A stretch of DNA of 64,000 bases. It comes from a virus. Below, piece after piece: positions 12,978 to 50,077 of the stretch. Each line of letters opens with the position of its first letter. Within the stretch, counting starts at the first letter, position 1. The notes beneath the pieces are model-generated. The model did no database searches. It was given only the letters and a program-made list of their open reading frames with translations, and was not told where the DNA came from. The stretch lies in IMG/VR virus record IMGVR_UViG_3300008113_004357, positions 1 to 64,000 of that record; one strand, 5' to 3'. Made by a program: the position numbers and the translations under genes.

Positions 12978-13003
12978 ATATACTATATAAACAGGAGCAA
13001 ATT

Positions 13004-14451: not shown

Positions 14452-14476
14452 TAGATAAATTATAAGCATATATAAT
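14448..14476 (+). promoter_or_regulatory. Candidate promoter for the small tandem genes
   Basis: TATAAT at 14471-14476 lies 17 bases after TTAATA (14448-14453, 4/6 to TTGACA). An overlapping GATAAATT (14454-14461) resembles a late box. Either could start transcription of the genes at 14493 onward. An AAGGAGA ribosome-binding site precedes the ATG. Confidence 0.4.
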
Positions 14477-14492
14477 GATATAAGGAGATATC

Positions 14493-14947: not shown

Positions 14948-14956
14948 GGAGATAAT

Positions 14957-25530: not shown

Positions 25531-26110
25531 TAAACACTCTCATTTTACTAATGTCAGGATAATCTTTATCACTCCAACATTTTGGTTTTAAATCTTTTAT
25601 TTGTTCAAATCGTTGTATCCCTAACTCTGCAGATTCAGGTGTCATATAATAATGATATCCTAACAGATCAACATCTTGTTCTTTCCACAGTACGTCGGGC
25701 AATCTACCATCATAGCTCATTTTTTTTAAAATATTAGCAGCTTCTTGGTTGTCAGTTAAAATCATTCCGCCGCGGCCCAAATTAAGATGCTTTCTAAATT
25801 GAAAACTCAAACACATAAATGTGCCAGGAATATAACTATCTTTTTTCCATAAGACTGCTGCATCAATGATATTTGTATTACCAATAAAATAATAGTCTTG
25901 CCATTGCGATTCAACAAACTCCCACGACAGTCCTAGTTTTTCAAATGTCATTGGTATAGATAGATATGTGTGTGCAGGGCAAGTTACTGACTTGGGAGTT
26001 GTGTAACGCAAGCAAAGTTCTACGGCATGAGTACAACTGTCTGTTGCAACTGCATACTCAGAACCAAAATAGTTTGCGATAATATTTTCAAAGTCAGTTA
26101 CTGGAGACAT
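25520..26110 (-). CDS. Miniature DegT/DnrJ/EryC1/StrS aminotransferase
   Basis: 196 residues. FENIIANYFGSEYAVATDSC and THAVELCLR match the PLP-fold entry of the DegT family, CPAHTYLSI the substrate loop, DAAVLW the PLP-pyridine Asp, and CLSFQFRKHLNLGRGGM (100-116) the internal PLP Lys107. Typical members have 360-400 residues; this one stops after YYMTPESAELGIQRFEQ and lacks most of the C-terminal domain, though that final helix is the normal family segment. It may be a minimal enzyme or need a partner. Would transfer an amino group to a keto sugar or cyclitol. Overlaps both neighbours by 11-17 bases. Confidence 0.8.
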   Translation of the reverse strand: MSPVTDFENIIANYFGSEYAVATDSCTHAVELCLRYTTPKSVTCPAHTYLSIPMTFEKLGLSWEFVESQWQDYYFIGNTNIIDAAVLWKKDSYIPGTFMCLSFQFRKHLNLGRGGMILTDNQEAANILKKMSYDGRLPDVLWKEQDVDLLGYHYYMTPESAELGIQRFEQIKDLKPKCWSDKDYPDISKMRVFNVK

Positions 26111-28349
26111 TTTCTTTTGTTTTCTTAATACTAGAAATTGGAATTACTACATTAGAATGCATTGCTTGTTTTTCAGGTATGGCATCCATGTTTGAAGCAT
26201 TTGAAACTTCTACTTCGTATTCTTTAAAATTACCCCAGTGGCCTTGTCCTCTATATCTGTATTGAAAGGTGAAATTTATAGTATTGTTTAATATTCTTTC
26301 TTCTTCTAAAAGATCATTAAAGTCATCACCACTTCTTCCGGCTTCAACATCCCATGTTGGTTTAGCTAACTTTCTTGCTCGCTTTGCAGTATTACTCATC
26401 ATTCGACTATAGTCTTGAGCATAGAAAGGACCTTTACGTCCCCTAGGAGGTGGCTCTCTTTCGTCATAGGGATTATCAATTTGATCAAATTTATATTTAA
26501 AGTCAGCAGCCCACTCACCGTCATCTGAAATTTTAAATTTAAATACTGCATTGTACATGCCTGGACCATACTGCGTTCCAAATTCTTTCAAATCAATTTC
26601 AGGATTAAATAAAATCTCAGCTTCATAGCCACCGCGAGTTTTCCATAGCATACGGAAGAATGGCCACATCTCATTTACTAGTGCGTCAGCAAAAGGATTA
26701 ATGCTAGGTTTAATTATATCGTAATCAAATTTTTCATATTCAATTTCTTTTACAAGATAAGGATTGTTTAACTTTATTGAATAGTGCTCTTTAGCTAGAT
26801 TAAATCTCACAGGATAACCAAACGGTACTTCTGTACAGCCTGTCATAAAATCTAGGAACATATGCATTATTTTAACACGAGACATGACATGTGTGCCGCC
26901 CTTGGTAAAATCATTAGTGATCCAATGTCCTTGATATTTTTGCCAGCTGATATTAAACTTGTGGGGGTTTTGTCCAACAATAGTTTCTGGACCAAGTCCA
27001 TATCCTACACCAGCACCTACGTTATTGATGTTCATGTTACGCATACGCCATAGTAACGTCATGCTGTCAGCAAAGTCTTGTAGTGTCTCTGTAGGGAATC
27101 CTACAATCCAATTAGTAGCTGCATAGATACCAACTTCTTTGCCATGCTTAAAGTTGTCTTCCATTTCTTTAATAGTAACACCTTTGGCCATGTCATCTAG
27201 AACATGTTGACTGCCGCTTTCGATTCCGTAGTTTAACATAATACAGCCGCCGGCCTTTAAATCTTTAAAGTACTCAAGGTCCATGCGACCATCACAGCGA
27301 GCATAGCCTGTCCAGTTAATTTTTAGACCTTTGGCTTCAACTGCTTTACAAAAGGCACGTAGTTCTTTTAGGTTACCGTTAACTAGGCTATCAATGAACC
27401 AGATAACATCTACACCTTTGTTATAGTATAACCACTCTATTTCAGAAATTAAATCTACTGATTGACGTTGACGATATTTCCAAAAGTGTGTTTCTTCACA
27501 GAATGTACACTTGGCTGTACAACCTCGACTAATCTCTGTGTTAACTCCGTTAGGCAAATCGTAGAGACTAAAGTCAATGCTTTCGTAATCAGGCATTGGA
27601 AGTCCGTTAATATTGACACGTTCATATTCGTCTTGTGTTAATACAACAGGTTCAGTATGTTCTACTCCGTTTTCTACATCTTCTAATAACTTTAATAGAT
27701 TAATTTCACCCTCACCTACTACAACATAATCATAATAAGGATGTACAGTAAACCAACTTTTGTGTGCGTTAGGTCCGCCAACTGCAATTTTAATATGCGG
27801 AGCACGGCGTTTTAATTCTTGGGCCATCCATTTAGTAGGTTCTTCACTGATGTAGTACATACTAAAACCGACAACCTGCGGATTCATTTCTATTATTTCT
27901 TCTATTGCCTGTTCAAGAATAGGTTGTAGAATAGGATGTATATCTTTCATATACGTTTCCCCTAACCAGTGCCAACTGGCTGCAGGGTCCCACAATCTAA
28001 AAGGAAGTTTATTATTAGGGATCCAATCTTCTTGATGAGCGCGATATGCTTTAACATTAAGATCCATAATATGAGTTTCATATCCTGCACTTTTAGCAAC
28101 ACCGCTTAATCTAGCAAGACTAAACGGAGGCATATAAGGACTCCATTCTGGACATAGTACTAAAACTAATTTGGTATTTCTAGTCTTGTAGTCTACGTAA
28201 ACAGGAGTAAGATTTTTTTGTACAGTTGCTTTAGCATAGGGAGCAATGGCCTTCATCATAGACATATGACGTGCATCAGCTAAATCTTCGGGCGGCTTTT
28301 CGGGCAGGACTACTTCTTTTTTAGCAAGTCCTTGTAGATTAAAATCCAA
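26094..28349 (-). CDS. B12-binding radical SAM enzyme
   Basis: 751 residues. A cobalamin-binding Rossmann-like domain spans about 60-225 (LVLVLCPEWSPYMPPFSLAR, VVGFSMYYISEEPTKW, IAVGGPNAHKSW, YVVVGEGE). The radical SAM domain follows with C277-x3-C281-x2-C284 (SRGCTAKCTFCEE) and GIESGSQHVL. A C-terminal region of about 230 residues (AVFKFKISDDGEWAADFKYK, NFTFQYRYRGQGHWGNF) is not recognised. Such enzymes methylate unactivated carbons or rearrange skeletons. The start codon is TTG with AGGAG seven bases upstream. First gene after a 51-base gap; overlaps the aminotransferase by 17 bases. Confidence 0.88.
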   Translation of the reverse strand: MDFNLQGLAKKEVVLPEKPPEDLADARHMSMMKAIAPYAKATVQKNLTPVYVDYKTRNTKLVLVLCPEWSPYMPPFSLARLSGVAKSAGYETHIMDLNVKAYRAHQEDWIPNNKLPFRLWDPAASWHWLGETYMKDIHPILQPILEQAIEEIIEMNPQVVGFSMYYISEEPTKWMAQELKRRAPHIKIAVGGPNAHKSWFTVHPYYDYVVVGEGEINLLKLLEDVENGVEHTEPVVLTQDEYERVNINGLPMPDYESIDFSLYDLPNGVNTEISRGCTAKCTFCEETHFWKYRQRQSVDLISEIEWLYYNKGVDVIWFIDSLVNGNLKELRAFCKAVEAKGLKINWTGYARCDGRMDLEYFKDLKAGGCIMLNYGIESGSQHVLDDMAKGVTIKEMEDNFKHGKEVGIYAATNWIVGFPTETLQDFADSMTLLWRMRNMNINNVGAGVGYGLGPETIVGQNPHKFNISWQKYQGHWITNDFTKGGTHVMSRVKIMHMFLDFMTGCTEVPFGYPVRFNLAKEHYSIKLNNPYLVKEIEYEKFDYDIIKPSINPFADALVNEMWPFFRMLWKTRGGYEAEILFNPEIDLKEFGTQYGPGMYNAVFKFKISDDGEWAADFKYKFDQIDNPYDEREPPPRGRKGPFYAQDYSRMMSNTAKRARKLAKPTWDVEAGRSGDDFNDLLEEERILNNTINFTFQYRYRGQGHWGNFKEYEVEVSNASNMDAIPEKQAMHSNVVIPISSIKKTKENVSSN

Positions 28350-28400: not shown

Positions 28401-29531
28401 CTAAACATTTACTGTGTCTAAACGATAACACGTTTTTTCCATCAATACTTGATAATTATGATCAAGAATTTCTTTGACAGCTTTCTGCCATTCAATCCAT
28501 TGGCTATCGCTGAATTCGCACAACCTTAAAACTTCTTTCCAAATCATGTCCAGTCGTGCATGATCGTCAATTTCATTATCGTAACTTTCGTCTATTAAGG
28601 GATCAAATGTTTTGTATCCTAATTTTTTTAAATGCTGCAATGAAAAGGGTCTTGACGCTAAAATGAAAGGGTGTTTTAATGCAATTGGCCTAAATGTTTT
28701 TTCTGTTAAAAATATAGAATCCCTAGCATCTATATACGGAAAAAAGTCATTGTGCTCTTTGAAAAACAGAGTTTCAGTAACCAAACTAAAATAACTGTCA
28801 TTGTGATAGTGTATATCGTCAAGTCGTACATCAATTGGATTGTATCTATCATCAGGGACATTAAGGCGAAGCGGGAATATGTCTTGGTATCTCGTAAATA
28901 ATTTACGCATTCTTTTATATTTCTGCGAATTACCTATACGATTTATCACATCTATACCATATTCAAAAGACGAATAAGTTTTTTCTAAAAGATTACTGTC
29001 AAGTATTTTGTAAAAAAGAAGTACTCTGTGTTCCCTTAACTGTTTGTTAAGACAACAAAATAATTTAGATTTTTTTTGAATTAAGTATTCAATTGTTGGA
29101 TGATTAGTTTCACGATAGAAAACAGAAAGATTTTCTTTCATTACATTTTCAAAAACACTACTGCAACAAATCTCAAGTAATGGTTCTATATTTTGTTCTA
29201 AACAATAGTTTTGATATACTTCTTTTCCATTTTGTGCTGAGGTCAGATATATGTAAGAAACGCTGTAATCATTTATTTGTCTAATAATTCTATGAATTTT
29301 TCTTATATGATCAAAGTAAACTGCTTCATTAACATTGTCAAATAAAATTCTTTTATATCCAGCACTGATTGCCGATTTGATAGAATCTATTATTGGATCT
29401 GTTTCTATTTTAGGAAAGGGATAATTGAAATATGTTCCAGCATAAACATAGAAAGTCTTGCTGTCTATCTCGCCAATAACTTCTGTTAAAAATTTAATGC
29501 TTAAATCAATTTTACTTTGTTCTAAAATTAA
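28401..29531 (-). CDS. Glycosyltransferase-like protein, SEK/KPF family (copy 2), no standard start codon
   Basis: The frame is open from the A10 run that ends the upstream dehydrogenase. The first ATG in frame is at 29141, giving 246 residues, yet the 130 codons before it match the paralogue at 31542: DNVNEAVYFDHI against NNSHEAFHSVVDGI, and CLNKQLREHRVLL against NLNRRWRFHRPAL. From 29531 it is 376 residues, like the 379-residue paralogue. The C-terminus has FLTEKTFRPIALKHPFILAS and GYKTFDPLIDESYDNEID. No ATG, GTG or TTG precedes 29141, so it is made by -1 frameshift fusion, by ATT initiation (29528 or later), or the sequence has an indel. Sugar specificity unknown. Confidence 0.65.
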   Translation of the reverse strand, partial: LILEQSKIDLSIKFLTEVIGEIDSKTFYVYAGTYFNYPFPKIETDPIIDSIKSAISAGYKRILFDNVNEAVYFDHIRKIHRIIRQINDYSVSYIYLTSAQNGKEVYQNYCLEQNIEPLLEICCSSVFENVMKENLSVFYRETNHPTIEYLIQKKSKLFCCLNKQLREHRVLLFYKILDSNLLEKTYSSFEYGIDVINRIGNSQKYKRMRKLFTRYQDIFPLRLNVPDDRYNPIDVRLDDIHYHNDSYFSLVTETLFFKEHNDFFPYIDARDSIFLTEKTFRPIALKHPFILASRPFSLQHLKKLGYKTFDPLIDESYDNEIDDHARLDMIWKEVLRLCEFSDSQWIEWQKAVKEILDHNYQVLMEKTCYRLDTVNV

Positions 29532-30721
29532 TTTTTTTTTTGGCGAGAATTGCCGTAGTGTATTAATTCAAAATTGGCACCATCTACAGTTTGCAATTTG
29601 CGCCACGGGTCTATTACAATAGATCCATTAGGGAATTCTACATATTTTACCCATTCTTCCCAGTAACCAATGAGATATACTTCAGTCCACTCAGATTTTA
29701 AATCTAAATCGCCTGTGTTTTTATCATAATAATTTACATTGCCACCTAGCTGTTCAATGTAATGGCCTACTAATAAACTGGGGCTTCCGATAGTATAATG
29801 TACACCCGGTTTGTATGCTTTACCTACTATGGTAACATTTTTACCTTGAGAGATACATTTTTTAGCAATGCGTTCAGATTGTACTTCTCTAGCTGTCATA
29901 ATAGCATCGAATAAATCATACCCCAGGTCAAGCTTGTCAGCTAGATATCTTAATGCTATGTTATCTCTTGGATGGCATGCGCCGCCATCACCGAGTCCTG
30001 CTGTCATATATGCAGGCCCCATAATACGATAAGAACTTTTTGCCAATGCATTAGTGACAACATCAACATTGATATTTCCATTTGTTTCTGCAACATCTTG
30101 TATCATATTAACCAGTGCTAGTTTTGTACTGATAAAAGTATTGTAAAAGATTTTAATGCTTTCTGCTTCGTCCCAAGTCCCAACTTCATACCGTGGGTTA
30201 TTTTTCATAAGAGGGTTATAAAAATCAATTAACTCTTGTGCATCACCAGTTAAACTGCCGTCTTCTGTACCTATGATAACCATTTCAGGATTAATCATAT
30301 CATACTTAACTGTACCCATGGCAATAAGATACGGATTATAGATAAAACGAGCATTAGTTATTAAGGGCTCTAATTGAGATCTTACAGTACCTGGTAAAAC
30401 TGTACTGATTAAAACAACTAGTTGTTTTTTGTTAACATGTCTATTAACTTCTTGTAAAATATTCTTAACAATAGTGTAATCAAAATCTTTATTTGGTAAA
30501 TGACTTGTCGGTGTTTCGCCGCCGTACATAGGGTCATGTGGTGTAGGTGCCGCAATAAAAATAAAATTGCTGTCTTCTACTGCATCTTTTATTGAAGACA
30601 TCATAGGAAAAGCAGGCGATCTAGGCTCAACGTCATAGCCTACTACTTGGTAGTGTTCTGCCATTACTTCGGCGCAATCTTGCCCAAGTTTTCCAACACC
30701 AATCATAGCAACTTTAGTCAT
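29528..30721 (-). CDS. UDP-glucose/GDP-mannose 6-dehydrogenase, full length
   Basis: 397 residues with all three family domains. MIGVGKLGQDCAEVM (6-20) is the NAD-binding motif, VLISTVLPGTV and EAESIKIFYNTFISTK form the centre, and GLGDGGACHPRDN (242-254) carries the catalytic Cys249. VTIVGKAYKPGVHYTIGSPS, after about residue 295, is the C-terminal nucleotide-binding domain. Oxidises an NDP-hexose to NDP-uronate, giving an acidic sugar for the local glycosyltransferases. Start preceded by AGGAAT. The gene ends in RQKKN encoded by an A10 run; see the frameshift site. Confidence 0.88.
   Translation of the reverse strand: MTKVAMIGVGKLGQDCAEVMAEHYQVVGYDVEPRSPAFPMMSSIKDAVEDSNFIFIAAPTPHDPMYGGETPTSHLPNKDFDYTIVKNILQEVNRHVNKKQLVVLISTVLPGTVRSQLEPLITNARFIYNPYLIAMGTVKYDMINPEMVIIGTEDGSLTGDAQELIDFYNPLMKNNPRYEVGTWDEAESIKIFYNTFISTKLALVNMIQDVAETNGNINVDVVTNALAKSSYRIMGPAYMTAGLGDGGACHPRDNIALRYLADKLDLGYDLFDAIMTAREVQSERIAKKCISQGKNVTIVGKAYKPGVHYTIGSPSLLVGHYIEQLGGNVNYYDKNTGDLDLKSEWTEVYLIGYWEEWVKYVEFPNGSIVIDPWRKLQTVDGANFELIHYGNSRQKKN
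29532..29541 (-). other. A10 run: candidate -1 ribosomal frameshift site
   Basis: Ten consecutive A (minus strand) sit five bases before the end of the dehydrogenase gene. In its frame they read C-AA AAA AAA AA-T TAA, containing the canonical slippery heptamer A AAA AAA. A -1 slip leads into KLILEQSKIDLS, the downstream glycosyltransferase-like frame, which has no normal start codon. A homopolymer-length sequencing error would give the same picture. Confidence 0.5.
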
Positions 30722-30750: not shown

Positions 30751-31548
30751 TTAAAACCAATCTATTTTTATTTCTTTATTCATCACAACTGGAGGGTTAT
30801 TAGCGTCTAAATTAAACGTGTGATGAATATCATCAACAGTTGGACAAGCTTTTAAAAGTTTAGTAGATTGTATAGCGTACTTGTAGGTTTCTTGTGATAT
30901 GTCAAAACCCACTTTTTTTAAATATGCATAATATCTTGCCGGAGACGGATGGTAATCTTGAAATTTAATTCCCTGTTGCGGGTGATCATAAACGTGCCCA
31001 TGGTCCCAATGTCCTCTCATTTCTGTTTGAAATAAGTTAGGCAAACATATGCTAGTTACAGGTTTATATACATTCAATATTTTACCAATATCTTGTGTTT
31101 CTTCATTTTGATAATTCCAAGGAACACTAGTAAGAAAAATATAATCACATGGCAAACTATCAAGTAATCCTTTGGTCAAACTTACAACATTTAAATCTCT
31201 TAAAATATAGCCTTTTGTATCGCAGAATTTTTTAACAAAATTTTCAGGATAATATGCTTGAGTGAATATGTTTCCTGGTGTCTGCCAATGATCGTTTACG
31301 TATCTATCTTCTCTACAAAAAGTTGTCCACATTACCACAACTAGATCATCCTCTGTATAATTTAATTTAGTGTTACCTTCAGCTACTTTATACGAAATAA
31401 AAGGGTTGCCAGCTCCAGATTTTCCTAGGTTAATAAACTCTGTGTCTGGCATAGTATGTGCAAGAATATCTGCCCAGGTTGGCCAAATATATTTTGTAAA
31501 ACTACATCCAACTGTAATTAATCTTTTATATTTTTTTAAATTTAACAT
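30751..31548 (-). CDS. SGNH-type hydrolase/esterase-like protein
   Basis: 265 residues. RLITVGCSFTKYIWPTWADI puts Ser16 in the G-x-S nucleophile block; NLGKSGAGNPFI gives the Gly/Asn blocks; VVVMWTTFCREDR follows; and QDYHPSPARYYAYLK near residue 215 gives the D-x-x-H-P catalytic end. A second member of this superfamily lies at 22079. Likely an esterase or acyltransferase on a sugar or polysaccharide. No signal peptide is visible. Overlaps the upstream gene by seven bases. Confidence 0.75.
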   Translation of the reverse strand: MLNLKKYKRLITVGCSFTKYIWPTWADILAHTMPDTEFINLGKSGAGNPFISYKVAEGNTKLNYTEDDLVVVMWTTFCREDRYVNDHWQTPGNIFTQAYYPENFVKKFCDTKGYILRDLNVVSLTKGLLDSLPCDYIFLTSVPWNYQNEETQDIGKILNVYKPVTSICLPNLFQTEMRGHWDHGHVYDHPQQGIKFQDYHPSPARYYAYLKKVGFDISQETYKYAIQSTKLLKACPTVDDIHHTFNLDANNPPVVMNKEIKIDWF

Positions 31549-32681
31549 AATTTTGTTGTAAAGGTCGATTTTGAAAGCAAAGTATCAAAATTATATTTGC
31601 ATATAGATTTAGAAAAATCTAAAAACTCTGCTAGCTCAGTTGTATTTAAGTTAGATAAACGCTCAATTTCATCTACTATGGCTATCATACGTTTTACATC
31701 GTCTTCAATAAGATCGTATGCTTCATTAATATACGGATGAAAAGTTTTATAACCTATAGACCTAATTGCTTCTAGACTGTTAGGTCTACTTACAATTATA
31801 AAAGGATGGAAATTTGCAATTGGTTTAAAAAGTTTTTCGCTTAAAAATCTTCCCTTTTCTAGAAAATCATAATAATTTGTTTCGCTTACTACACTAAAAT
31901 AAGTTTCTTCATAAAATTTAGTAGTACTTTGCAATAAGGTAACATGGTTAATCTCCATGTCTGTCCTATCTACAAATAACTCTGGCAATGATAAAATTTT
32001 ATCTTTATTATTTTTTAAAAACTCTAATTCTGTATAATGATTTCTATGGATATCTAAAATGTCGTTCCAAACTTTATCCCAAGTTTTGTTATCGTCCGAT
32101 TTTGCTAAACTTACATATCCATAATCTAGCAAATTTCTAGCAGCCAAAAATGCTACTAACGCAGGTCGATGAAATCTCCATCTTCTGTTTAAATTTAAAA
32201 ACTTTTTAGAATAATTTTTTATATTAAGAGTATCCGGTAAAACATAACCCATACTAGTTACATCGCACTTTGTTGATAGTTCAAAAACTCTTGACCATTC
32301 GGATGTAATAGGTTTACAATTATATTTTTTAGATACTATACCAATTTCAACAGCTATATCCGCAGACTCGCTTAATAGTAATATTTGTTCTTCGGGAATT
32401 TTAAATTTAATAACAACAAATTTATAAATTCCATCAACTACAGAATGAAACGCTTCATGGCTGTTATTTAAAATTAACTTGATTCGTTTACGTCGAATTG
32501 AAATCAAAATATTAGACGGAACAACTTTGTTTAAATGCTCAAGTCCTTCACCTGTCATAAAGTCGACACAAAAATACTGTGCATCATTAAACTTTCTCAT
32601 TCGAGGAAGAACAGTTTCGTCCCGCATAGAGATTTCACTATTTCCGTCAATATAAGGAACTACGTTGTTTACTATAGACAT
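31542..32681 (-). CDS. Glycosyltransferase-like protein, SEK/KPF family (copy 3)
   Basis: 379 residues. FLNLNRRWRFHRPALVAFLA and RFLSEKLFKPIANFHPFIIV with SIGYKTFHPYINEAYD are the family landmarks shared with the genes at 22807 and 28401. ATG start directly after the stop of the SPASM-type radical SAM gene. The conserved Ser-Glu-Lys and Asn-Arg-His-Arg positions suggest a phosphate or nucleotide-sugar pocket, which is inference. This copy has an intact start and serves as the length reference for the copy at 28401. Confidence 0.7.
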   Translation of the reverse strand: MSIVNNVVPYIDGNSEISMRDETVLPRMRKFNDAQYFCVDFMTGEGLEHLNKVVPSNILISIRRKRIKLILNNSHEAFHSVVDGIYKFVVIKFKIPEEQILLLSESADIAVEIGIVSKKYNCKPITSEWSRVFELSTKCDVTSMGYVLPDTLNIKNYSKKFLNLNRRWRFHRPALVAFLAARNLLDYGYVSLAKSDDNKTWDKVWNDILDIHRNHYTELEFLKNNKDKILSLPELFVDRTDMEINHVTLLQSTTKFYEETYFSVVSETNYYDFLEKGRFLSEKLFKPIANFHPFIIVSRPNSLEAIRSIGYKTFHPYINEAYDLIEDDVKRMIAIVDEIERLSNLNTTELAEFLDFSKSICKYNFDTLLSKSTFTTKLC

Positions 32682-33647
32682 TTAAATCATTTCAAATTTA
32701 GGAATTATAATATCTGTTCCGCAATGGCAATGTTCTTTACCGCACATAATCTTTTTAGGACCAACTGCACTAATATCTTGCAATATATGACCAATTTTGT
32801 CGCCTTGGCCGCAACTGGCTAAACTTACATCACCTGACGGATTTATAAAGATTGAGTCTCCAACACTACATATCCAATCTTTAAAAAAGTTTTGGCCGTT
32901 AACAATAATCTCATTACTATTAGTCGGAGATTTTGTTCCGTCAGAATATCTATTATAACTTACTGCTTTACTTTCTTTGCGAGGTTTATTAATAGTAAAA
33001 TTCATTTCTACATTATGTTCATCAATAAACTTTTTCTTTTCAGGATCTTTGTATTCCCACGGTCCAGCGTTAACACTCATTTCATCAAACAACGGAGTCC
33101 ATTCAATAAAATAGTTAGGCATTACAGTTTTCAAATGCTCGCCATATTCTACAACTTCCCAAAATCTTTCTTCGTGCATTAACATTTTTGTACAAAGGTA
33201 ATTTACTTTATCGCAGAGAAAAATGTTGTTTTCTTTATATTTTTCTTTGTCAGAAAATTCTACATGAAAACTAGCTACTATGTCATCAAAGAGGTGATAA
33301 TGTTTTTCCCACCAGGCCAAAGGTCTACTGAGGTTAGTATTAACTGCTAGGGTGCAATTAGGCAACTGTTCTCTTAACCATTCGCAAATGGGAATAAAAT
33401 TTTTCCACGCAGTTGGTTCTCCGCCGCTAAAGAAAAACTTATAATGTTTGTACCCAACACTTTTATACCTATCAATAATAATTTTAAGATTTTTTAAATA
33501 GACATCTAAATTATCGTCATTGCGAAAATTTCCTCCCCAGTTGCCGGGATTACAATAACTACATTTAAAATTACAAAAATTATTAACTTGCCATGTAACC
33601 GCTAGATAAGGCTCAGGAGCAAATATAGATATTAATTTTTTGCCCAT
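32682..33647 (-). CDS. Radical SAM enzyme with SPASM-like C-terminus
   Basis: 321 residues. C25-x3-C29-x2-C32 (NNFCNFKCSYCNP) binds the 4Fe-4S cluster, FFFSGGEPTAWKNFI is the SAM GGEP motif, and LAVNTNLSRPL the next strand. The C-terminus has cysteines DWICSVGD, ASCGQG and MCGKEHCHCGTD, suggesting one auxiliary SPASM/twitch cluster. Such enzymes modify peptides, sugars or cyclitols. Gene order places it between a glycosyltransferase-like gene and three N-twitch radical SAM genes, overlapping the latter by 16 bases. Confidence 0.88.
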   Translation of the reverse strand: MGKKLISIFAPEPYLAVTWQVNNFCNFKCSYCNPGNWGGNFRNDDNLDVYLKNLKIIIDRYKSVGYKHYKFFFSGGEPTAWKNFIPICEWLREQLPNCTLAVNTNLSRPLAWWEKHYHLFDDIVASFHVEFSDKEKYKENNIFLCDKVNYLCTKMLMHEERFWEVVEYGEHLKTVMPNYFIEWTPLFDEMSVNAGPWEYKDPEKKKFIDEHNVEMNFTINKPRKESKAVSYNRYSDGTKSPTNSNEIIVNGQNFFKDWICSVGDSIFINPSGDVSLASCGQGDKIGHILQDISAVGPKKIMCGKEHCHCGTDIIIPKFEMI

Positions 33648-34891
33648 CTATAGACCTCTTTAAGTTCTGGAATAACATCTAAAATACTTTCGTTGCGAGC
33701 GGCGTCTAACTCGTCATTAAATTTAATAAACTCTTGTATACCACCTTTGTTAGGATCTCCGCTTTTTAAATTTTGACTTATCATTTTAAACCCGTTGCTA
33801 ATCTCAGGATTATACGAATACTTGTGAATGTATTCTCGATATAATCTACCTAACTTTTCTTTTGAGAATTCAGGGAGAATCATAATATTGGAATACCAAG
33901 GACTGGTAGCAAGATTAAATCTAGGCACAGTATTCTTGTCAATTAGTTCGTTGTCGATCAAGTAGTCAAAGAATTTAGGAAATTGAAATACGTTCCAAAT
34001 ACTAATAGTAGGAGTTATTTGGAACTGTGCGTGGGGTACTAGTTCTTTTAGTTCTCTTAAGTTTTTCTCTATCCTATCCCAATCAGTACCTTTACGAATT
34101 AATTCGCTATGTGGTCCCATGCCGTCTAGGCTAGCCCAAATAATTAAGTTAGGAAATTTTTTCCAATAATCAATTAAGTCTTTATCTTTAAACTTAAGGC
34201 TGCTAAAGTTTGTTGTATAACTTAACTCAATAGTTTCATTTATACCATTTTCAATCCAGTAGTCTAAACACTCATAATGTTCTGGAGTGATAATAATTTC
34301 GCCGCCTGCAAAATATACTTCAACTACATCTTTAAGGTACGGTTTTAATTTAGTCATTAACACTTGATCATCGTTGTTACTAACTACCATTTTAGTCATG
34401 TTAAAATGTTTGTTTAAAACTTCAACACCTTTTTGGTCAATAAATTCCTGTGCCCATTGACTAGAACAGCTTGGTCCGCAACTACGACATTTCATATTGC
34501 AGAGATTACTAAAACGAATGTCCATGTACTTTAACTTAAATTCGTTTAAACTTCCATCGTCATTAGTGTCCTCAACTGTGTCAACAAAATCAAGTCCTCT
34601 GCGTCTGTTATGACTTTGTCTCATAGTCCACGTGCCTAATTTTTCGAGATCGTAGCATCGTTGGCATGCTTCAACTGGTTCGTCATTGAGCATGTTTAAT
34701 CGCATTTTCTTATACTCTTCACTGTTCATCATTTCAAGTATAGATTCATTTGATTTGATTTCACCTACTGGTTTATTACTGTCAGCTACACAGCATGGCA
34801 ACACCCTGCGATCTGGCCAGGCATGAAAATGAATCCAAGGAAGGATACAAAAGTGTTTTCCATTTTCAACAAGCTCTGTTACGTTTTTCAT
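33632..34891 (-). CDS. N-twitch radical SAM enzyme (copy 1)
   Basis: 419 residues. The N-terminal auxiliary domain has HFCILPWIHFHAWPDRRVLP then CC (33-34) and C76-x2-C79. The radical SAM site is C131-x3-C135-x2-C138 (SNLCNMKCRSCGP), and YFAGGEIIITPEHYE is the SAM strand. The auxiliary cluster sits before, not after, the radical SAM core, an architecture known as N-terminal twitch. Its substrates are not established. LIIWASLDGMGPHSELIRKG follows. Three paralogues in tandem suggest successive reactions on related substrates. Two bases separate it from the next copy upstream. Confidence 0.85.
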   Translation of the reverse strand: MKNVTELVENGKHFCILPWIHFHAWPDRRVLPCCVADSNKPVGEIKSNESILEMMNSEEYKKMRLNMLNDEPVEACQRCYDLEKLGTWTMRQSHNRRRGLDFVDTVEDTNDDGSLNEFKLKYMDIRFSNLCNMKCRSCGPSCSSQWAQEFIDQKGVEVLNKHFNMTKMVVSNNDDQVLMTKLKPYLKDVVEVYFAGGEIIITPEHYECLDYWIENGINETIELSYTTNFSSLKFKDKDLIDYWKKFPNLIIWASLDGMGPHSELIRKGTDWDRIEKNLRELKELVPHAQFQITPTISIWNVFQFPKFFDYLIDNELIDKNTVPRFNLATSPWYSNIMILPEFSKEKLGRLYREYIHKYSYNPEISNGFKMISQNLKSGDPNKGGIQEFIKFNDELDAARNESILDVIPELKEVYRWAKN

Positions 34892-34893
34892 TG

Positions 34894-36132
34894 TTACTCC
34901 GTTAGATTCATAAGTCTATTTAATTCTGGGAAAGTTTTAATGAAACTTTCACCTCTAATTTTATCAGTTGACAAGACATGCATAAAAAATGTCTTTTTAT
35001 TTTCATCCCAAGTGTTGCTTTCATCTGCAAATTTTATTGCATCTGTTACAAGATTGTTTAACAGCACCCATTCAGGACCGTTAGAAGATATAAATTTTTC
35101 TGCATTTTCTTTTGCAGCTGCCTTTAAAATTTTTGGCATACTTTTAGCAGAATAATAACTAGGATGAACGGCAAGATATAAACTGTGATACCAGTCGTCC
35201 AATCTTACAATATTTTTTTCCTTAAGATAGTTATAAAAATCTCCAATAGTCAGATAATTGAAAATACTGAATACTGTGTTTATTTGAAAATGTACATAGT
35301 CTAATTGTCTAAAAGTAAGCAGGTTACTTTCAACTTTACCCCAATCTGTACCGTGACGTAACCACTCTGCTCGTTCGCCGTAATGGTCAATTGAACAGCT
35401 TAATTCAACACGTTTAAAATGTTTCCACAAGTCTAGTATGTCATGATTTTTATATTTAATATTGCTGGCATTAGTGTTATAACGTAAAGTTACATCAGTT
35501 CTACCCTTACGAATCATTTCTTCAAGGATAGTGTAGTGCTCATCTGTGATTAAAGGTTCGCCTCCAGCAAAGTAAGCAAGATCGATGTGTTCAATGTGTG
35601 TTAGTACTTCATTAAGCAAATCGCCTTTACCGTCATCGGCATGAATAACTATAGGATGATTAGGATCAAAATTTGCTTTTTGTTCGGCGGCCCATTGACT
35701 GCTAAATTCAGCACCACAGGTTCTACATTTAAAATTACAAATATTACTAAAACGTATGTCGTAATATTTCATTTTAAAATCTGGCATTGTGCCATCTACT
35801 TGTGTTTGTGGCACTAGTTCGTCAAAATCTTTTCCCCAATGTTCTTTGCTATAATTTCTAAAACTGTGAGGACCTGCTTCTTCATGCTTATAACAAAACG
35901 TACAAATTTCACTTTTAGTTTCGTTTAACATGTTAAGACGAATAGTTTTCATCTTGTCGTTATTAAACGCATCTTTTAATGTTGTTTGCTTTGTATTACC
36001 AAATGGAGTAGTATAGTTGTTACTACAGCAAGGGTATATGTCTCCTTTTGGTGTTACATTTAAATGCATCCATGGAAACATGCAAAATACTTTGCTTTCA
36101 TTTAATAAAAAATCTTTATCTATATTGTTCAT
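34894..36132 (-). CDS. N-twitch radical SAM enzyme (copy 2)
   Basis: 412 residues. FCMFPWMHLNVTPKGDIYP and C35-C36 with C77-x2-C80 form the N-terminal twitch cluster; C132-x3-C136-x2-C139 (SNICNFKCRTCG) is the radical SAM site; YFAGGEPLITDEHYTIL has an intact GGEP. VELSCSIDHYGERAEWLRHG follows. The closest paralogue appears to be copy 1. Copies 2 and 3 keep GGEP, whereas copy 1 has GGEI. Overlaps copy 3 by 17 bases. Confidence 0.86.
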   Translation of the reverse strand: MNNIDKDFLLNESKVFCMFPWMHLNVTPKGDIYPCCSNNYTTPFGNTKQTTLKDAFNNDKMKTIRLNMLNETKSEICTFCYKHEEAGPHSFRNYSKEHWGKDFDELVPQTQVDGTMPDFKMKYYDIRFSNICNFKCRTCGAEFSSQWAAEQKANFDPNHPIVIHADDGKGDLLNEVLTHIEHIDLAYFAGGEPLITDEHYTILEEMIRKGRTDVTLRYNTNASNIKYKNHDILDLWKHFKRVELSCSIDHYGERAEWLRHGTDWGKVESNLLTFRQLDYVHFQINTVFSIFNYLTIGDFYNYLKEKNIVRLDDWYHSLYLAVHPSYYSAKSMPKILKAAAKENAEKFISSNGPEWVLLNNLVTDAIKFADESNTWDENKKTFFMHVLSTDKIRGESFIKTFPELNRLMNLTE

Positions 36133-37504
36133 TGGCTATTTCGCAAAGTTTGTAAAAGCTTTCCATTTCTGGAAATGCTTGTAAAAAGTTAGTATCTCGT
36201 CTTTTATCCATGGCGCTAAACCAATTGAAAAAATCTTTTCGACCTTCAACTAATTTTTCCATAGTATAATTTGTTGACTCCATATAATCGACTACACGTT
36301 TAAATTTTTCATATTCAACGCTGGTAAACTTATCGCTGGCATTATCGTCAACATTCTCTTCCATAAATTTAAGATGCTCGTGCATATAGGGCATAAACTC
36401 TTGTTTTGGTAGTATGTTCATATCATATTGAATAGGATCTCTGAGATAGGGTGTGTCAAATCTTACGCGATGTTCTTTACGATCCTCGTACCATCCATAT
36501 TGTTTACGCCATTCAAGAATTTTTTCTAATAAAGATTTAAATGTTGTTACACTTAAAATATTAAATGTAATCATAAAAGTTATCGGACTAGTAGTATTTG
36601 TAAGATATGTGTGAAAATTTTGTTCCCATAACGAAAGATCTAAACCTGTACGAATGTACTCAGCACGAGGACCCCATGTGTCCATACTAGTAAACAATTT
36701 AAAATTTTTAATTTTATCGTTAACTTTTAAATTTTCAACTTCGGTAGATAATCGATCTACTAAACTGCTCTTGACACCAAGATTACTGTTAACATTAAGT
36801 TCAAGCCAGGGCATTGGTTCTTTGTTAATTTTATCTAATAATCTCCACGTGCTTACGTGCATCAATGGCTCTCCGCCAGTAACACGCATAATATTCAATG
36901 TCTTACGTAACTGAGGCCACCAACGCCAAAACGCATCTACATATGGATTATCTTCTTCTCGACTATACAGCTTCATCCAGTCAATGTCGCAACGATGATT
37001 TTTAACTGTGGTCACTGGACCGTGTTCTTTAATCTCATTAAAGAATCTTGAACTGTATTTGGGATGGCAGTATCCGCATTTGAAATTACATTCATTGCCA
37101 AAATTGATTTCAATATACTCAGGATTAATGTTTTGGTCCCAAGAGCCTTTGGCTGTTTGCTCGTAGCGTTCTTCCGTAAAAATACTGGCATTGCGAATAT
37201 GTCTATCGCTAATATAATCGGGACCCATTGCTTCGATGTTCCAGCAGTATTGACAACCTTCGGGCTTTTTGCCTTCTAGCATCATTTTACGTTCTTGCTT
37301 CTTATGTTCAGTGTTGTGCAACGCACTGGGATTGTCAAATACTTCAATTAAAGGAATCTTATGAGGAGCAGGATGATAACAACTATGTGTTTCTCCTGTT
37401 TGTAGATACATGGTCACGTGATGCCATTTGGCTAGACAAAATGTAGAGCTTACTTCATTCTCTACTTTAATCTTGATTGTTTTGATCTTTTCTTGTTCAT
37501 TCAT
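36116..37504 (-). CDS. N-twitch radical SAM enzyme (copy 3)
   Basis: 462 residues, the longest copy. FCLAKWHHVTMYLQTGETHS with C42 and C84-x2-C87 is the twitch part; C139-x3-C143-x2-C146 (GNECNFKCGYCHPK) is the radical SAM site; RVTGGEPLMHVSTWRLL is the SAM motif. LFTSMDTWGPRAEYIRTG matches the TSxDxxGxRxEYxRxG region of the family. More divergent than copies 1 and 2. Overlaps the GT-like gene upstream by four bases. Confidence 0.87.
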   Translation of the reverse strand: MNEQEKIKTIKIKVENEVSSTFCLAKWHHVTMYLQTGETHSCYHPAPHKIPLIEVFDNPSALHNTEHKKQERKMMLEGKKPEGCQYCWNIEAMGPDYISDRHIRNASIFTEERYEQTAKGSWDQNINPEYIEINFGNECNFKCGYCHPKYSSRFFNEIKEHGPVTTVKNHRCDIDWMKLYSREEDNPYVDAFWRWWPQLRKTLNIMRVTGGEPLMHVSTWRLLDKINKEPMPWLELNVNSNLGVKSSLVDRLSTEVENLKVNDKIKNFKLFTSMDTWGPRAEYIRTGLDLSLWEQNFHTYLTNTTSPITFMITFNILSVTTFKSLLEKILEWRKQYGWYEDRKEHRVRFDTPYLRDPIQYDMNILPKQEFMPYMHEHLKFMEENVDDNASDKFTSVEYEKFKRVVDYMESTNYTMEKLVEGRKDFFNWFSAMDKRRDTNFLQAFPEMESFYKLCEIANEQYR

Positions 37505-38397
37505 TTGAAATAGTTTCTCAGTGTATCGTGCATTTTTTTATAGTAAATAGATCCATCAGCATCAAGGTCAGCAATTTCAATTCCGTGTGCTTGCTTGATT
37601 TCGTTACCGTAAAATTTAATTTTTTCTTCTGCATGATCAATAGTTTTATCTGACCATTGTTCTTTCCAATACTCAGTTAAGTACTCAAAATCTCTTACGT
37701 TAGCGTACTCCCAATTTGTACAATTTGTAAGATAGCAGCCTTCTCTGGCGCCTAGCAGACTGTACAAACCATTATCAACATCACGCCCAACAGAGCACCA
37801 TGTAATTAATCTATAATAGTTTTCCCACCAAATTTGTTTTTTCATATCCGTAACTTTGGCACCTTGGTCTAGGCTCATCTTTACACCTTCACGAAAGCCC
37901 GCTCGCCATGCTTGAAATGGCGTAGCATTAGTAAAGGTAGTGCTATAATTGCCCCCAAACTGATGATACCTATGATCAAAACAAAACTCTACTAAACCTT
38001 TATGATCTGCAGGGTCTGAATTTTCATGGGTTTTCATTTCGTTGACAAATTTACGTGTCCACATTTTAAGGCCACCATTGCCATACATAAGATGATTGAC
38101 ATGTACACGACCAGCCCAGCTAAAAACATAGCTATCATCAAAACCTAGTTCGTCTAAATCAACAACTACTTGAAAAAATTTACTGTCAACAATATTGTCA
38201 GCATCAACAGTGACAAAATATTCTGTTTCACTTTTTGCAGCACAAGCTTTATGTGCGGCGTCGCTGCCTTTGACTCCGTGTACACGTTTAGCCCATGGCA
38301 CTTTCTTTAATAGGTCAGCATAATTTTTTTCAGCATTAGGTTCATCATAACTTAAAAATACAATGTCCTGATCAATGACTTTAATTTTATTACTCAT
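37501..38397 (-). CDS. Glycosyltransferase-like protein of the VHGVKGSDAAH family
   Basis: 298 residues. DIVFLSYDEPNAEKNYADLL, AKRVHGVKGSDAAHKACA and YFVTVDADNIVDSKF (D-x-D-N) give a GT-A-like core; LMYGNGGLKMWTRKF and QAWRAGFREGVKMSLDQG are shared with the gene at 16552. It is colinear over its whole length with that gene and with the last domain of the repeat protein, so these three share one ancestor. Likely a sugar transferase; the cofactor site is inferred from the DxD only. Confidence 0.78.
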   Translation of the reverse strand: MSNKIKVIDQDIVFLSYDEPNAEKNYADLLKKVPWAKRVHGVKGSDAAHKACAAKSETEYFVTVDADNIVDSKFFQVVVDLDELGFDDSYVFSWAGRVHVNHLMYGNGGLKMWTRKFVNEMKTHENSDPADHKGLVEFCFDHRYHQFGGNYSTTFTNATPFQAWRAGFREGVKMSLDQGAKVTDMKKQIWWENYYRLITWCSVGRDVDNGLYSLLGAREGCYLTNCTNWEYANVRDFEYLTEYWKEQWSDKTIDHAEEKIKFYGNEIKQAHGIEIADLDADGSIYYKKMHDTLRNYFK

Positions 38398-38965
38398 ATT
38401 TTTCCTTAATTCCGTAATTAGGAAATCTTTTTAATGTTGCTACACTTATTTGTCCGAGATTCTCTTCGTAATTAGTTTCAAAACTGTAATCTATCTTACC
38501 GTCAATAATATTACTAGCGTCAACTGTAAAATATCTGTACAAATAATGTGGGTCGTCTTTTTTACAAATATAAAATGTAATTGGAGGCAATACTTCTAAT
38601 TTTTCTAACGCTTCTTCATCAAAATATACTGTCCATTTATGATCAATTGTGTTGTGCTCAAGTATAACAGTATCATTAACATTGTATGTTAGAGGTAAAA
38701 TTTGAAATAATGGCTTACTGTATTCTACAGTATCATTTTCAGAAATTCTAATACCTTTACTTAAATTATAAAAATATTCTATATTATATTTTCTAAAATC
38801 TTTTTTACCATTAATAAAATCATCTATCAAAAAAAGATCAATTTCAAATACTTTATACTTGTCTTCTTTAACATTACTCAATAAATGTACAGTACCTTCA
38901 TTGTCATAATGAACATAGAAAGAATTATATACCATTCCTGATGTTGAACGTTCTTTTCTACTCAT
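38390..38965 (-). CDS. Hypothetical protein of the leftward module
   Basis: 191 residues, Asp/Tyr-rich and predicted beta-rich (GMVYNSFYVHYDNEGTVHLL, KWTVYFDEEALEKL, ITFYICKKDDPHYLYRYFTV). No recognised motif. Overlaps the flanking genes by four and eight bases, so it is co-translated with two glycosyltransferase-like proteins. Could be a non-catalytic partner. Confidence 0.65.
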   Translation of the reverse strand: MSRKERSTSGMVYNSFYVHYDNEGTVHLLSNVKEDKYKVFEIDLFLIDDFINGKKDFRKYNIEYFYNLSKGIRISENDTVEYSKPLFQILPLTYNVNDTVILEHNTIDHKWTVYFDEEALEKLEVLPPITFYICKKDDPHYLYRYFTVDASNIIDGKIDYSFETNYEENLGQISVATLKRFPNYGIKEKYE

Positions 38966-39792
38966 AGATTTTCCAATTTTTTAATTATATCGTCAGTAAG
39001 AAATTCGTTTTCTACATAATGAAATAAGCCGTGTTGCTGAAAATTGCCAACTTTTAAATTTCCACTTTCACTAAAATAAGAAGAAATAGCCGAAGTCCAT
39101 TTACTTGGAATATTTTTCCAACCCTGTATTGCCGGTTTCATATGTGTAAAACTTGGCACTAGTGTATCTTTAGTAGTAAATTCTTCCTCGCATCCCATAA
39201 ATTTAAGGGCCAATGCTACACTGACATCCATACTACAAAATGTTTGAGGAGAATTTTTAAGATGTAGTGGATAAAATTTTCTCCACTGGTCAATAATAAT
39301 TTCTACCCATTTAAAAAATTCATAAGTTCTATCAACCTTTTTAAAATAAAAGGCACCACTATATGTGTTGACTAGATTATTAGCCGTGAATGTTTTTCTA
39401 TAGTAATCATTGTTAATTACGTTTCCTCGATAGTCTAAAACATTCGAAGTAAAAAATAAATCTTTTTGTTCTAAATATTTCCACCAATGATCGTTACTGT
39501 TTAATAACAACATATCAGTATCGTAGACAATGTTTTCAATAAACGGACTTACATGTATTACTTTCCATCTATTTTCAATTTTCCAAGATGACCCTTCTGC
39601 ATCATCACCCCACGGAATTGGTAGTATATGATCAAATGCATGTCTATAAGATTCCGGTACTTCGTTATTAGTAATTAAACATGTTTCACGATATAACTTA
39701 TTATTCTTTTTAATGCTTAATGCCAATGCGTAAGCTTGTCTTACATAATCAACATTAGAATTTTGTGCTACAAAAATATGACCATTAGACAT
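38962..39792 (-). CDS. GT8-like glycosyltransferase
   Basis: 276 residues. HIFVAQNSNVDYVRQAYALA is the GT8-type opening, NIVYDTDMLLLNSNDHWW carries the D-x-D (DTD) metal motif, and YSGAFYFKKVDRTYEFFKW is the acceptor-side strand. Would transfer a hexose from a UDP donor with a divalent metal. Paralogous to the next gene upstream, with which it overlaps by eight bases. Confidence 0.75.
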   Translation of the reverse strand: MSNGHIFVAQNSNVDYVRQAYALALSIKKNNKLYRETCLITNNEVPESYRHAFDHILPIPWGDDAEGSSWKIENRWKVIHVSPFIENIVYDTDMLLLNSNDHWWKYLEQKDLFFTSNVLDYRGNVINNDYYRKTFTANNLVNTYSGAFYFKKVDRTYEFFKWVEIIIDQWRKFYPLHLKNSPQTFCSMDVSVALALKFMGCEEEFTTKDTLVPSFTHMKPAIQGWKNIPSKWTSAISSYFSESGNLKVGNFQQHGLFHYVENEFLTDDIIKKLENL

Positions 39793-40621
39793 TGTTAATC
39801 TGCCTTAATAAACTATACTTGTTCATTACATGAACATCCACGGTTGATGTCTTTACTGGGGTAAAATCTGAAGCTTGATCTTGCTTTTGTACTAAAAATT
39901 TCATCACCGATTCTTTAATTTCAAAAAGAATATCAGAATCTCTTATATAAAAAAGTTTACCAGGTAAATGATGTGCAAACGTGCCTAGACTAAATCCATT
40001 AAGCATATGGATTGCAATACTAAATGCGTAATCATTTCTAAAATTAGTACTGTGTATTTGATACACTAACTTATAATAAGTCCAATTTTCTTTAACATGT
40101 TTTACTAACGCAAACAACAATTCAGTATTTTTAGTTTTCTTAAAGAAAAATACCGTAGCCCAGTAAAATGGAATGCCGTGCTCACCGACTGTGGTGAATT
40201 CAGACACATCTCGCCACTGTGCTAGGTCAAATCCTTTTTGGTAAATTAGGAAGTCGTGGGGCTGATCCCAGCAGTAGTTTAATGTTTTTGAGTTTACAAT
40301 ATAATCTGAATCAATTACTAGAGTATTTTCATATGGGGTAAGATCAAAAACACTATGTCGTGTGCTGTTTTTCCAAGGAAGCTTGACGCTTTTACTAGCA
40401 CCGTCATAGAAATATTTTGAATTAGAGTGTTCTTCTTGCTCTAATTCTATAATTTTATCGAATACCGAAGTGTCTAACTTGTCAAAGATAGATTTATCAT
40501 CTGTGATAACTGTTACTGGCACTTCTAGAAATTTTGCTACCTTTTTTGCCGCAAACCAGGCCAGTTGTGCATAATCAATTTCTTGATTATTATAGGCAAA
40601 CAGCACTACTCCGTTAGTCAT
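39785..40621 (-). CDS. GT8-like glycosyltransferase
   Basis: 278 residues. VVLFAYNNQEIDYAQLAWFA, VPVTVITDDKSIFDKL and ENTLVIDSDYIVNSKT (D-x-D) define a GT-A fold like GT8; FYWATVFFFKKTKNTELLF follows. Second gene from the module promoter. Its start overlaps the previous stop by four bases. Confidence 0.73.
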   Translation of the reverse strand: MTNGVVLFAYNNQEIDYAQLAWFAAKKVAKFLEVPVTVITDDKSIFDKLDTSVFDKIIELEQEEHSNSKYFYDGASKSVKLPWKNSTRHSVFDLTPYENTLVIDSDYIVNSKTLNYCWDQPHDFLIYQKGFDLAQWRDVSEFTTVGEHGIPFYWATVFFFKKTKNTELLFALVKHVKENWTYYKLVYQIHSTNFRNDYAFSIAIHMLNGFSLGTFAHHLPGKLFYIRDSDILFEIKESVMKFLVQKQDQASDFTPVKTSTVDVHVMNKYSLLRQINNV

Positions 40622-40965
40622 GCTACAAGAGTCTCCACTGATCTGCTATTCTTAAGTTGTGAATACTTGGTATAATACTCGTTAATAGAACTTTGATAAA
40701 TCACTATCAGTGTGTCTAAAAAGTTTTTAAGATTTTCAATGTTAATAGGAGTATGGTTGTCATCAACTAACACCATATCTTCATCGTAACCTAGATCAAT
40801 TAGTGTTTTAACAAAATTTATAAGGTCACGGGTTACAGTAAATGTTCCACCGTTTTGATAATGGATCAAATTTTGAAGAAATTCTTCTTTGAGTATGTGT
40901 TTTTGGTTTGACAACGTAGTCATATAATTGGCTACGTCAAAGGCTTTTTGGACGATTGGATCCAT
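40618..40965 (-). CDS. Small helical protein, first gene of the leftward module
   Basis: 115 residues, mostly helical (IVQKAFDVANYMTTLSNQKH, LINFVKTLIDLGYDEDM) with a Ser/Tyr-rich end. No recognised domain. It is the first gene after the consensus sigma70 promoter at 41.0 kb and has an AGGAG ribosome-binding site. Could be a regulator or a structural helper. Confidence 0.65.
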   Translation of the reverse strand: MDPIVQKAFDVANYMTTLSNQKHILKEEFLQNLIHYQNGGTFTVTRDLINFVKTLIDLGYDEDMVLVDDNHTPINIENLKNFLDTLIVIYQSSINEYYTKYSQLKNSRSVETLVA

Positions 40966-40988: not shown

Positions 40989-41017
40989 ATTATACTATTT
41001 TATCTAAAAATTGTCAA
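40989..41017 (-). promoter_or_regulatory. Consensus sigma70 promoter of the leftward glycan/radical SAM module
   Basis: On the minus strand TTGACA (41017-41012), 17 bases, TATAAT (40994-40989): perfect consensus. The -35 lies within the last codons (Leu-Thr) of the virion gene at 41000-41866, whose stop falls in the spacer. Start of transcription would be about 15 bases before the AGGAG of the first module gene. The middle module can therefore be read by unmodified host polymerase, separately from the virion genes upstream. Confidence 0.88.
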
Positions 41018-41866
41018 GTAGTTATCTGTGAAAGTAACAGTAAATGCTAATGTGTTAGCAGTAGGTCTACTTACTGCAACCGTATATCGATTTTCAGCAT
41101 ACTGTGTTACACTAGAAGATTGAGTAAGAATGTTCGTAGCACCTGCACCAGTTACAAGGGTTTGAAATCCTACAGCAGATCCTACACTGCCGCCGGCATT
41201 TACTGAACCTGTAATGTTAGTGCTAGATGCTCTAAAATTAAGTGTACCAAAACCACTTAACATATTAGACCAATCTGTATCTTTTGTAGTTGCGGCTGCG
41301 CCTGTTCTTGAACCGGTAATTTGAATTGACCCACCGGCGTTGAAGAAACAGCGAATATGATCAGCTGCTGGTACTGTAAGGCTTCCCGAAGTGTATCCTG
41401 CAAACGTTAAAGTGATAGTATGAGAAATACTAGTTCCTAAACCAGTCGTACCCCAGTTTGATGACCTAGTTGTTGATGTCAATGACACTCCTGGAGTAGT
41501 CTGAGCAGCGGCGACCGTTGCTCGATTGGCGTTTACTCCATTGTCTGCAAAGTCCTGATATTGGAATCGAATAGCTTCACTGACCACTGTTGACGGTGTA
41601 ACGTCAAATAGTGTCTGCCATGGGCTTCCGCTAGTAGTGCTGGCGGTAGAAACTGCGGTATTGGTTTGGTGTATTCTAGCCTTGGATAAGTCATCTCGCA
41701 ATGCGTCCCATTGAGTAGAAGTCATTGTAGTACTTTGACTTACTGGACTACTAGCAATTGGTTGCCCGTAGCCAGTTGTTCCAGTGCCGATGCCCATCAC
41801 TGACGCAATAACAGACTGAATGTTATTATAATCTTGAGCCGTTGCTCTTGTTCCTGATCCTGCCAT
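41000..41866 (-). CDS. Virion structural protein with FNAGG motif
   Basis: 288 residues, rich in Ser/Thr/Gly/Ala. The segment ADHIRCFFNAGGSIQITGSR, then DTDWSNMLSGFGTLNFRASS, is one I recall as conserved in structural proteins of many marine phages, placed next to tail-fibre genes. The N-terminus has a short helical DYNNIQSVIASVMGIGTG. Probably a tail or baseplate-associated surface protein. AAGGAA precedes the ATG. Confidence 0.75.
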   Translation of the reverse strand: MAGSGTRATAQDYNNIQSVIASVMGIGTGTTGYGQPIASSPVSQSTTMTSTQWDALRDDLSKARIHQTNTAVSTASTTSGSPWQTLFDVTPSTVVSEAIRFQYQDFADNGVNANRATVAAAQTTPGVSLTSTTRSSNWGTTGLGTSISHTITLTFAGYTSGSLTVPAADHIRCFFNAGGSIQITGSRTGAAATTKDTDWSNMLSGFGTLNFRASSTNITGSVNAGGSVGSAVGFQTLVTGAGATNILTQSSSVTQYAENRYTVAVSRPTANTLAFTVTFTDNYLTIFR

Positions 41867-41876
41867 TTTATATTCC

Positions 41877-43661: not shown

Positions 43662-43683
43662 CTTTTAACCTCTTAATCTTATG

Positions 43684-43691
43684 TATTTATA
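43684..43691 (-). promoter_or_regulatory. Perfect T4-type late promoter TATAAATA
   Basis: Minus-strand TATAAATA lies 23 bases before the ATG of the fibre gene at 43661, in the gap after the stop at 43702. Exact match to the T4 late consensus; consistent with sliding-clamp-activated late transcription of virion genes. Confidence 0.7.
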
Positions 43692-43701
43692 TCTTACTGC
43701 T

Positions 43702-50062: not shown

Positions 50063-50077
50063 ATTAGACTCTTTAAA

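Follow-up and report, generated by a model that had tools for sequence, protein, structure and literature searches.

The N-twitch radical S-adenosylmethionine (SAM) family NF033640 (N_Twi_rSAM) and phage modules rich in radical SAM genes are both already known (PMC2853527; PMC5332604). The family name implies no reaction, and none is assigned to these proteins in the sources we searched. Here, we analysed a stretch of 64,000 bases (the window) out of the 67,284 of IMG/VR virus record IMGVR_UViG_3300008113_004357, which stems from a virus that infects aquatic bacteria. At positions 33632-37504, the window carries three genes that match the family over their full length and above its cut-off, with an N-terminal twitch and a radical SAM barrel, and in which three old classes of the family form one colinear operon with glycosyltransferases.

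Several cultured phages have a similar gene company. In Campylobacter phages CP220/CPt10, baseplate-type genes are followed by five radical SAM genes together with an amidinotransferase and two genes of sugar-transferase fold; for CP220, Timms et al. made a case for metabolic cargo (PMC2853527). The CP220 proteins match our model of copy 2 at the fold level only, with a low TM-score. A marine T4-like genome from TARA (Nishimura 2017) holds many (12) radical SAM genes, yet these were treated as Fe-S cluster metabolism, without an ordered operon or a link to glycosyltransferases (PMC5332604). Synechococcus phage S-SCSM2R combines a 61% identical amidinotransferase with DegT, a 2-oxoglutarate oxygenase, glycosyltransferases and a single radical SAM gene, but lacks the N-twitch array of the window. 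Distant N-twitch relatives are interleaved with glycosyltransferase-like sequences (read by eye) beside a tail-fibre-like gene in Vibrio phage K566, and one lies two genes from a glycosyltransferase-family gene in KVP40. In the open-licence literature, we found no paper on radical SAM proteins with an N-terminal twitch, and no description of position-specific classes, of a colinear operon with four glycosyltransferases or of a linkage to tail fibres. The conserved operon, which ties the N-twitch genes to fixed partners (tail-fibre genes, four glycosyltransferases and one more radical SAM enzyme), offers a concrete, testable substrate hypothesis. Distant relatives in cultured Vibrio phages, among them QD01 and CZ01 of Vibrio natriegens Vmax and phage nt-1, bring the N-twitch family within experimental reach.

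Three constrained N-twitch classes in fixed order

All three genes are intact, complete open reading frames (ORFs) on the minus strand, transcribed in the order copy 3, copy 2, copy 1. A sequence-only reading of the window had described them as tandem N-twitch radical SAM genes that overlap or nearly abut, which is confirmed by NF033640 scores of 369, 373 and 313 bits for copies 1 to 3 (curated cut-off 170 bits), a 17-nt overlap of copies 3 and 2, and a 2-nt gap between copies 2 and 1; copy 1 overlaps the following gene, R, by 16 nt. The best score of any copy against the prokaryotic viperin profile was 27.7 bits, with a cut-off of 180. Each copy has the architecture of the family, a CX3CX2C motif (first cysteine C131, C132 and C139 in copies 1, 2 and 3) with the twitch N-terminal to it. 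The N-terminal cysteine set proposed earlier is likewise present throughout (C15, C33/C34, C76 and C79 in copy 1; C17, C35/C36, C77 and C80 in copy 2; C23, C42, C84 and C87 in copy 3), except that copy 3 has CY where the other two have CC. The SAM motif had also been read correctly, with GGEI for copy 1 against GGEP for the other two; with 49 of 60 members of its clade sharing it, GGEI is the usual form there and no oddity.

These features are deeply conserved. Among 509 N-twitch homologues of 330-560 aa, used for both motifs and tree, CX3CX2C is kept in every one and GGE and the four twitch cysteine sites in 99-100%, with CY or CH replacing CC in class A (the class of copy 3). Relative to the closest related locus, L217, dN/dS is 0.032 for copy 1, 0.016 for copy 2 and 0.038 for copy 3, by a simple Nei-Gojobori estimate with dS near saturation. 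This range (0.016-0.038), together with the retained motifs, rules out decay of the copies, which the sequence-only reading had named as a possible refutation, along with loss of cluster binding; the cysteines conserved across these homologues suggest that binding, too, is preserved. The copies are thus three distinct enzymes under constraint, which supports this part of the earlier reading.

What did not hold up is their origin by triplication. Copies 2 and 3 are 34% and 23% identical to copy 1, and in the tree of the 509 proteins each copy has a clade of its own (101 members for copy 3, 73 for copy 2 and 60 for copy 1), in most cases with a single member per locus. Larger groupings, drawn up blind to gene order and with moderate supports (0.83-0.91), place copy 3 in class A, copy 2 in class B and copy 1 in class C. 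When bacterial genomes were scanned with an alignment of the three window copies, relatives turned up mainly in Bdellovibrionota, Bacteroidota and Alphaproteobacteria; both class A and class C are present there, often singly, and the class A relatives are mostly 300-500 bits clear of the other class profiles. Outside viral loci, class B had a clear match only in a phage-like contig, and is almost confined to phages. Since bacteria have A-type and C-type relatives as separate genes, the two classes most likely split before the phage operon was assembled, and a duplicate pair could at most comprise B and C. A recent triplication is ruled out by the 23-34% identity, the separate clades and these bacterial relatives.

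N-twitch arrays are not limited to phages, because a Chitinophagales contig (L233, 736 kb) has several such genes close together on both strands (4605-14976). Three further contigs filed under Rhodobacteraceae and Rickettsiales (L225, L244 and L245) show the phage order p-T-T-G-N and look like phage binned with bacteria. Pfam counts for 101 bacterial neighbours gave mild signals only (radical SAM 8, GDSL 6, GT2 3).

Within phages, the order of the classes was never violated. Scanning viral contigs with all three proteins yielded >200 loci, which merging of those with identical proteins reduced to 141. Class A precedes B in 80/80 cases, A precedes C in 91/91 and B precedes C in 66/66, with up to eight N-twitch copies per locus. 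An extra class B clade, in 51 loci, usually sits between copy 3 and copy 2, and is absent from the window and L217. The earlier suggestion of sequential or substrate-specific steps fits this unbroken A-B-C order. That suggestion had passed over R, the four glycosyltransferases and the link to tail-fibre genes, all of which are more telling for function than the tandem itself.

An operon with four glycosyltransferase-type genes behind tail-fibre-like genes

In order of transcription, the full unit reads p-T2-T1-X-G-A-B-C-R-E-S (Table 1), and its genes overlap or touch from p to S. The order G-A-B-C-R-E is present in a large share of the 141 loci, and the string T-T-G-A-(B)-B-C-R-E recurs in related ones; in 85 loci, G stands ahead of the class A clade. 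The promoter is matched at 10-12 of 12 positions in eight related loci, all of the window's own lineage; beyond it, the first gene of other loci scores at background.

Four members of the unit are of glycosyltransferase type. The glycogenin matches of T1 and T2 span about 100 residues only, with D104 and D106 invariant in T2, and Pfam Mannosyl_trans3 and Glyco_transf_8 are reached by some members of the T1 family only. Besides the weakly GT2-like G, there is a second G-family protein (16552-17484), which shares 46% identity with G and stands at the distal end of the block of minus-strand genes. For E, a search of the PDB gave no sequence relatives and there was no family match, so we turned to fold prediction; the model aligns over its whole length to many GT-B enzymes (Z 9.4-11.4, root-mean-square deviation (rmsd) 4-5.5), which gives E a confidently predicted GT-B fold. 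Neither G, E and T1 nor the tail-like gene at 41000 has relatives in 50,697 GenBank phage records, and these records therefore yielded no orthologue of the complete operon in a cultured phage.

R adds five invariant C-terminal cysteines (C260, C279, C302, C307 and C309, in 83 sequences). The first gene product, p, is conserved in 43 loci and in the window lies behind the perfect promoter; it might act as substrate, as carrier or in assembly. Its alignment has few invariant residues (L25, G39, F51, D68, P73 and Y90), and a role as precursor peptide is unsupported, given the lack of a conserved cysteine or core motif.

Directly upstream of the operon, on the same strand, lie tail-fibre-like genes. 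Tail-fibre-like homologues are likewise found upstream, on the same strand, in all 44 loci that have T and 2.5 kb or more of sequence ahead of the operon; as the loci were sampled through N-twitch genes, this count describes such phages and not N-twitch genes overall.

What the operon may make

An AlphaFold2 model of copy 2, built from a 68-sequence alignment, is confident (predicted local distance difference test (pLDDT) 94.2, predicted TM-score 0.90) and has the radical SAM barrel from about residue 120. The barrel matches anSME, BlsE, MoaA, CteB, DesII and viperin (Z 10-12.6), with anSME on top (Z 12.6, rmsd 4.1, 221 residues); anSME, BlsE and DesII, among its best neighbours, represent peptide and sugar enzymes. 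By profile, the twitch (residues 9-87) aligns to that of BtrN, a sugar-alcohol (2-deoxy-scyllo-inosamine) dehydrogenase, along some 77 residues, with cysteine facing cysteine at all four sites; the whole-sequence match has an E value of 2.5e-7. In BtrN, however, the twitch is C-terminal to the barrel, and there is no sign of the same substrate. The likeness to anSME lies in the barrel, as the window copies have only four invariant cysteine sites beyond CX3CX2C and hence lack the seven-cysteine SPASM motif with its two auxiliary clusters. The auxiliary clusters of BtrN and anSME are fully ligated, and a role in oxidising the substrate radical has been proposed for them (PMC6231123). By analogy, our leading candidate for the chemistry of A, B and C is a dehydrogenation, in which a sugar alcohol or a side chain would be oxidised, because a BtrN-like twitch cluster would accept the electron of the substrate radical.

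We tentatively favour, at somewhat less than even confidence, a reading in which the operon produces a chemically modified glycan and transfers it, most likely to the tail-fibre proteins of the phage itself. The glycan would be built by T1, T2, G and E, and A, B, C and R would each abstract hydrogen in a distinct step, from the sugar or from its peptide acceptor, with the four-cysteine twitch cluster taking up the electron of the substrate radical. In its favour are the unviolated order of A, B and C, the overlap of genes that follow a perfect promoter, the four glycosyltransferase-type partners (GT8-like T1 and T2, GT2-like G, GT-B-fold E), the BtrN-like twitch and the tail-fibre-like genes upstream in 44/44 loci. 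A StrB-type amidinotransferase, DegT and a UDP-sugar dehydrogenase downstream further support it, and the gene company in S-SCSM2R, CP220, K566 and KVP40 is consistent with the whole. Compared with loci further removed, the radical SAM genes of the window keep 70-78% identity, and G, T and E 28-43% (the best match of E perhaps not being its orthologue), as expected if a common product is made while the glycosyltransferases diversify.

Several points weigh against this. The structural matches leave peptide and sugar substrates unseparated. Neighbourhood is not function, and the place next to tail fibres may be a cargo hot spot; the N-twitch relative of KVP40 lies near nrdAB, away from tail genes. 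The cassette could also act on host surface glycans or DNA; phage glycosyltransferases that act on DNA, on the host surface and on the virion are all on record (PMC12619734).

Among the alternatives, direct modification of peptide side chains on the tail fibre or on p, similar to the action of anSME or of maturases of ribosomally synthesised and post-translationally modified peptides, with the glycosyltransferases acting afterwards, seems unlikely to us, albeit the best of them. SPASM/twitch enzymes frequently have peptide substrates, anSME is the top structural match, the C-terminal cysteines of R end in CxC, comparable to the description of SkfB, and p is small, conserved and opens the operon. 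However, p has few invariant residues and no conserved cysteine, the BtrN match fits a sugar equally well, and a peptide-recognition domain did not turn up, albeit without a search aimed at one.

We think it rather unlikely that the cassette changes the surface polysaccharide of the host during infection, e.g. for superinfection exclusion. Such roles are known for phage glycosyltransferases (PMC12619734) and the sugar-nucleotide-type genes D, a and j would suit them, yet the position behind tail-fibre-like genes is constant (44/44 loci), and no flippase, polymerase or membrane-bound transferase was among the genes scanned, which were part of the ORFs only. Production of a small, diffusible aminocyclitol-like metabolite that aids the infected cell appears improbable: the BtrN-like twitch, DegT and StrB-type amidinotransferase do recall aminocyclitol pathways, and metabolic cargo has been argued for CP220 (PMC2853527), but four glycosyltransferases and the linkage to tail genes speak against it, and j and a, found within the 8-kb flanks of 9/141 and 10/141 loci, are not established as members of the constant core. 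Hypermodification of phage DNA is very improbable, for although the predicted fold of E resembles T4 beta- and alpha-glucosyltransferases (Z 11.4, with fucosyltransferase and TarM within 1) and genes similar to QueE and GTP cyclohydrolase are present in the genome, these genes lie on the opposite strand 20 kb off, no cytosine- or uracil-hydroxymethylating enzyme was among the ORFs scanned, and the operon is linked to tail genes.

There is a bolder reading, to which we give little credence: an assembly line in which at least three position-specific radical SAM enzymes and dedicated glycosyltransferases put a previously unseen, radical-derived modification on the glycan or peptide of the tail fibre. 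If true, receptor-binding proteins would be diversified chemically, beyond genetic diversification; under this as under the main reading, oxygen-sensitive radical chemistry would serve virion construction.

Coordinates and neighbouring genes

Table 1. Features of the operon and its surroundings, by position in the window
Feature	Coordinates	Strand	Assignment	Basis or occurrence
Tail-fibre-like genes	41000..50617	-	upstream genes 41000, 41877, 43702, 46938 (Phage_Collar), 49532, 50078	PHROGs, Pfam
Promoter	40989..41017	-	sigma-70 type, TTGACA-17-TATAAT	12/12 matches; directly before ATG of p
p	40618..40965	-	115 aa, function not assigned; first operon gene	directly before T in 43 loci
T2	39785..40621	-	GT8/glycogenin-like glycosyltransferase	profile vs PDB glycogenin-1, E 0.0026; invariant D104, D106
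T1	38962..39792	-	GT8/glycogenin-like glycosyltransferase	profile vs PDB glycogenin-1, E 3.5e-5
X	38390..38965	-	191 aa, function not assigned	window's own lineage only, 8/141 loci
G	37501..38397	-	GT2-like glycosyltransferase (weak)	Pfam Glycos_transf_2 in 2/21 members, E down to 4e-4
A (copy 3)	36116..37504	-	class A N-twitch radical SAM, twitch of the CY type	462 aa; NF033640 312.8 bits; clade 0
B (copy 2)	34894..36132	-	class B N-twitch radical SAM	412 aa; NF033640 373.4 bits; clade 1
C (copy 1)	33632..34891	-	class C N-twitch radical SAM (GGEI)	419 aa; NF033640 369.2 bits; clade 2
R	32682..33647	-	fourth radical SAM, C-terminal twitch-type region	follows class C clade in 60 loci
E	31542..32681	-	predicted GT-B-fold glycosyltransferase, undescribed family	model pLDDT 92.4; best matches GT-B enzymes
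S	30751..31548	-	possible GDSL/SGNH hydrolase (weak)	Pfam E 0.099, below cut-off; conserved after E
D	29528..30721	-	UDP-sugar dehydrogenase-like	PHROG 9148, E 2.4e-100; Pfam UDPG_MGDP_dh
Second E-family protein	28401..29510	-	reading frame, start codon not settled	phmmer family assignment
w	26094..28349	-	B12-binding radical SAM	Pfam Radical_SAM 6.7e-17, B12-binding 8.5e-12
a	25520..26110	-	short DegT/StrS-family aminotransferase	Pfam DegT 5.3e-18
j	24556..25530	-	StrB-type inosamine-phosphate amidinotransferase homologue	PDB 1bwd, E 2.2e-61

Downstream of the operon, j is the gene with the 61% identical counterpart in S-SCSM2R. The product of a has only 196 aa; since S-SCSM2R has a gene of equal size with the annotation 3-amino-5-hydroxybenzoic acid synthase, the shortened DegT form may be a real phage type. 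On the plus strand, genes resembling GTP cyclohydrolase I and QueE (5519-6355 and 8028-8900) suggest 7-deazaguanine DNA modification. A 1,536-aa protein (17462-22072) had no PDB match and marginal Pfam matches only. Upstream of the tail-fibre genes, a single ORF of 4,423 aa (50700-63971) with weak FG-GAP and CBM_5_12 matches possibly encodes a giant adhesin or tail protein.

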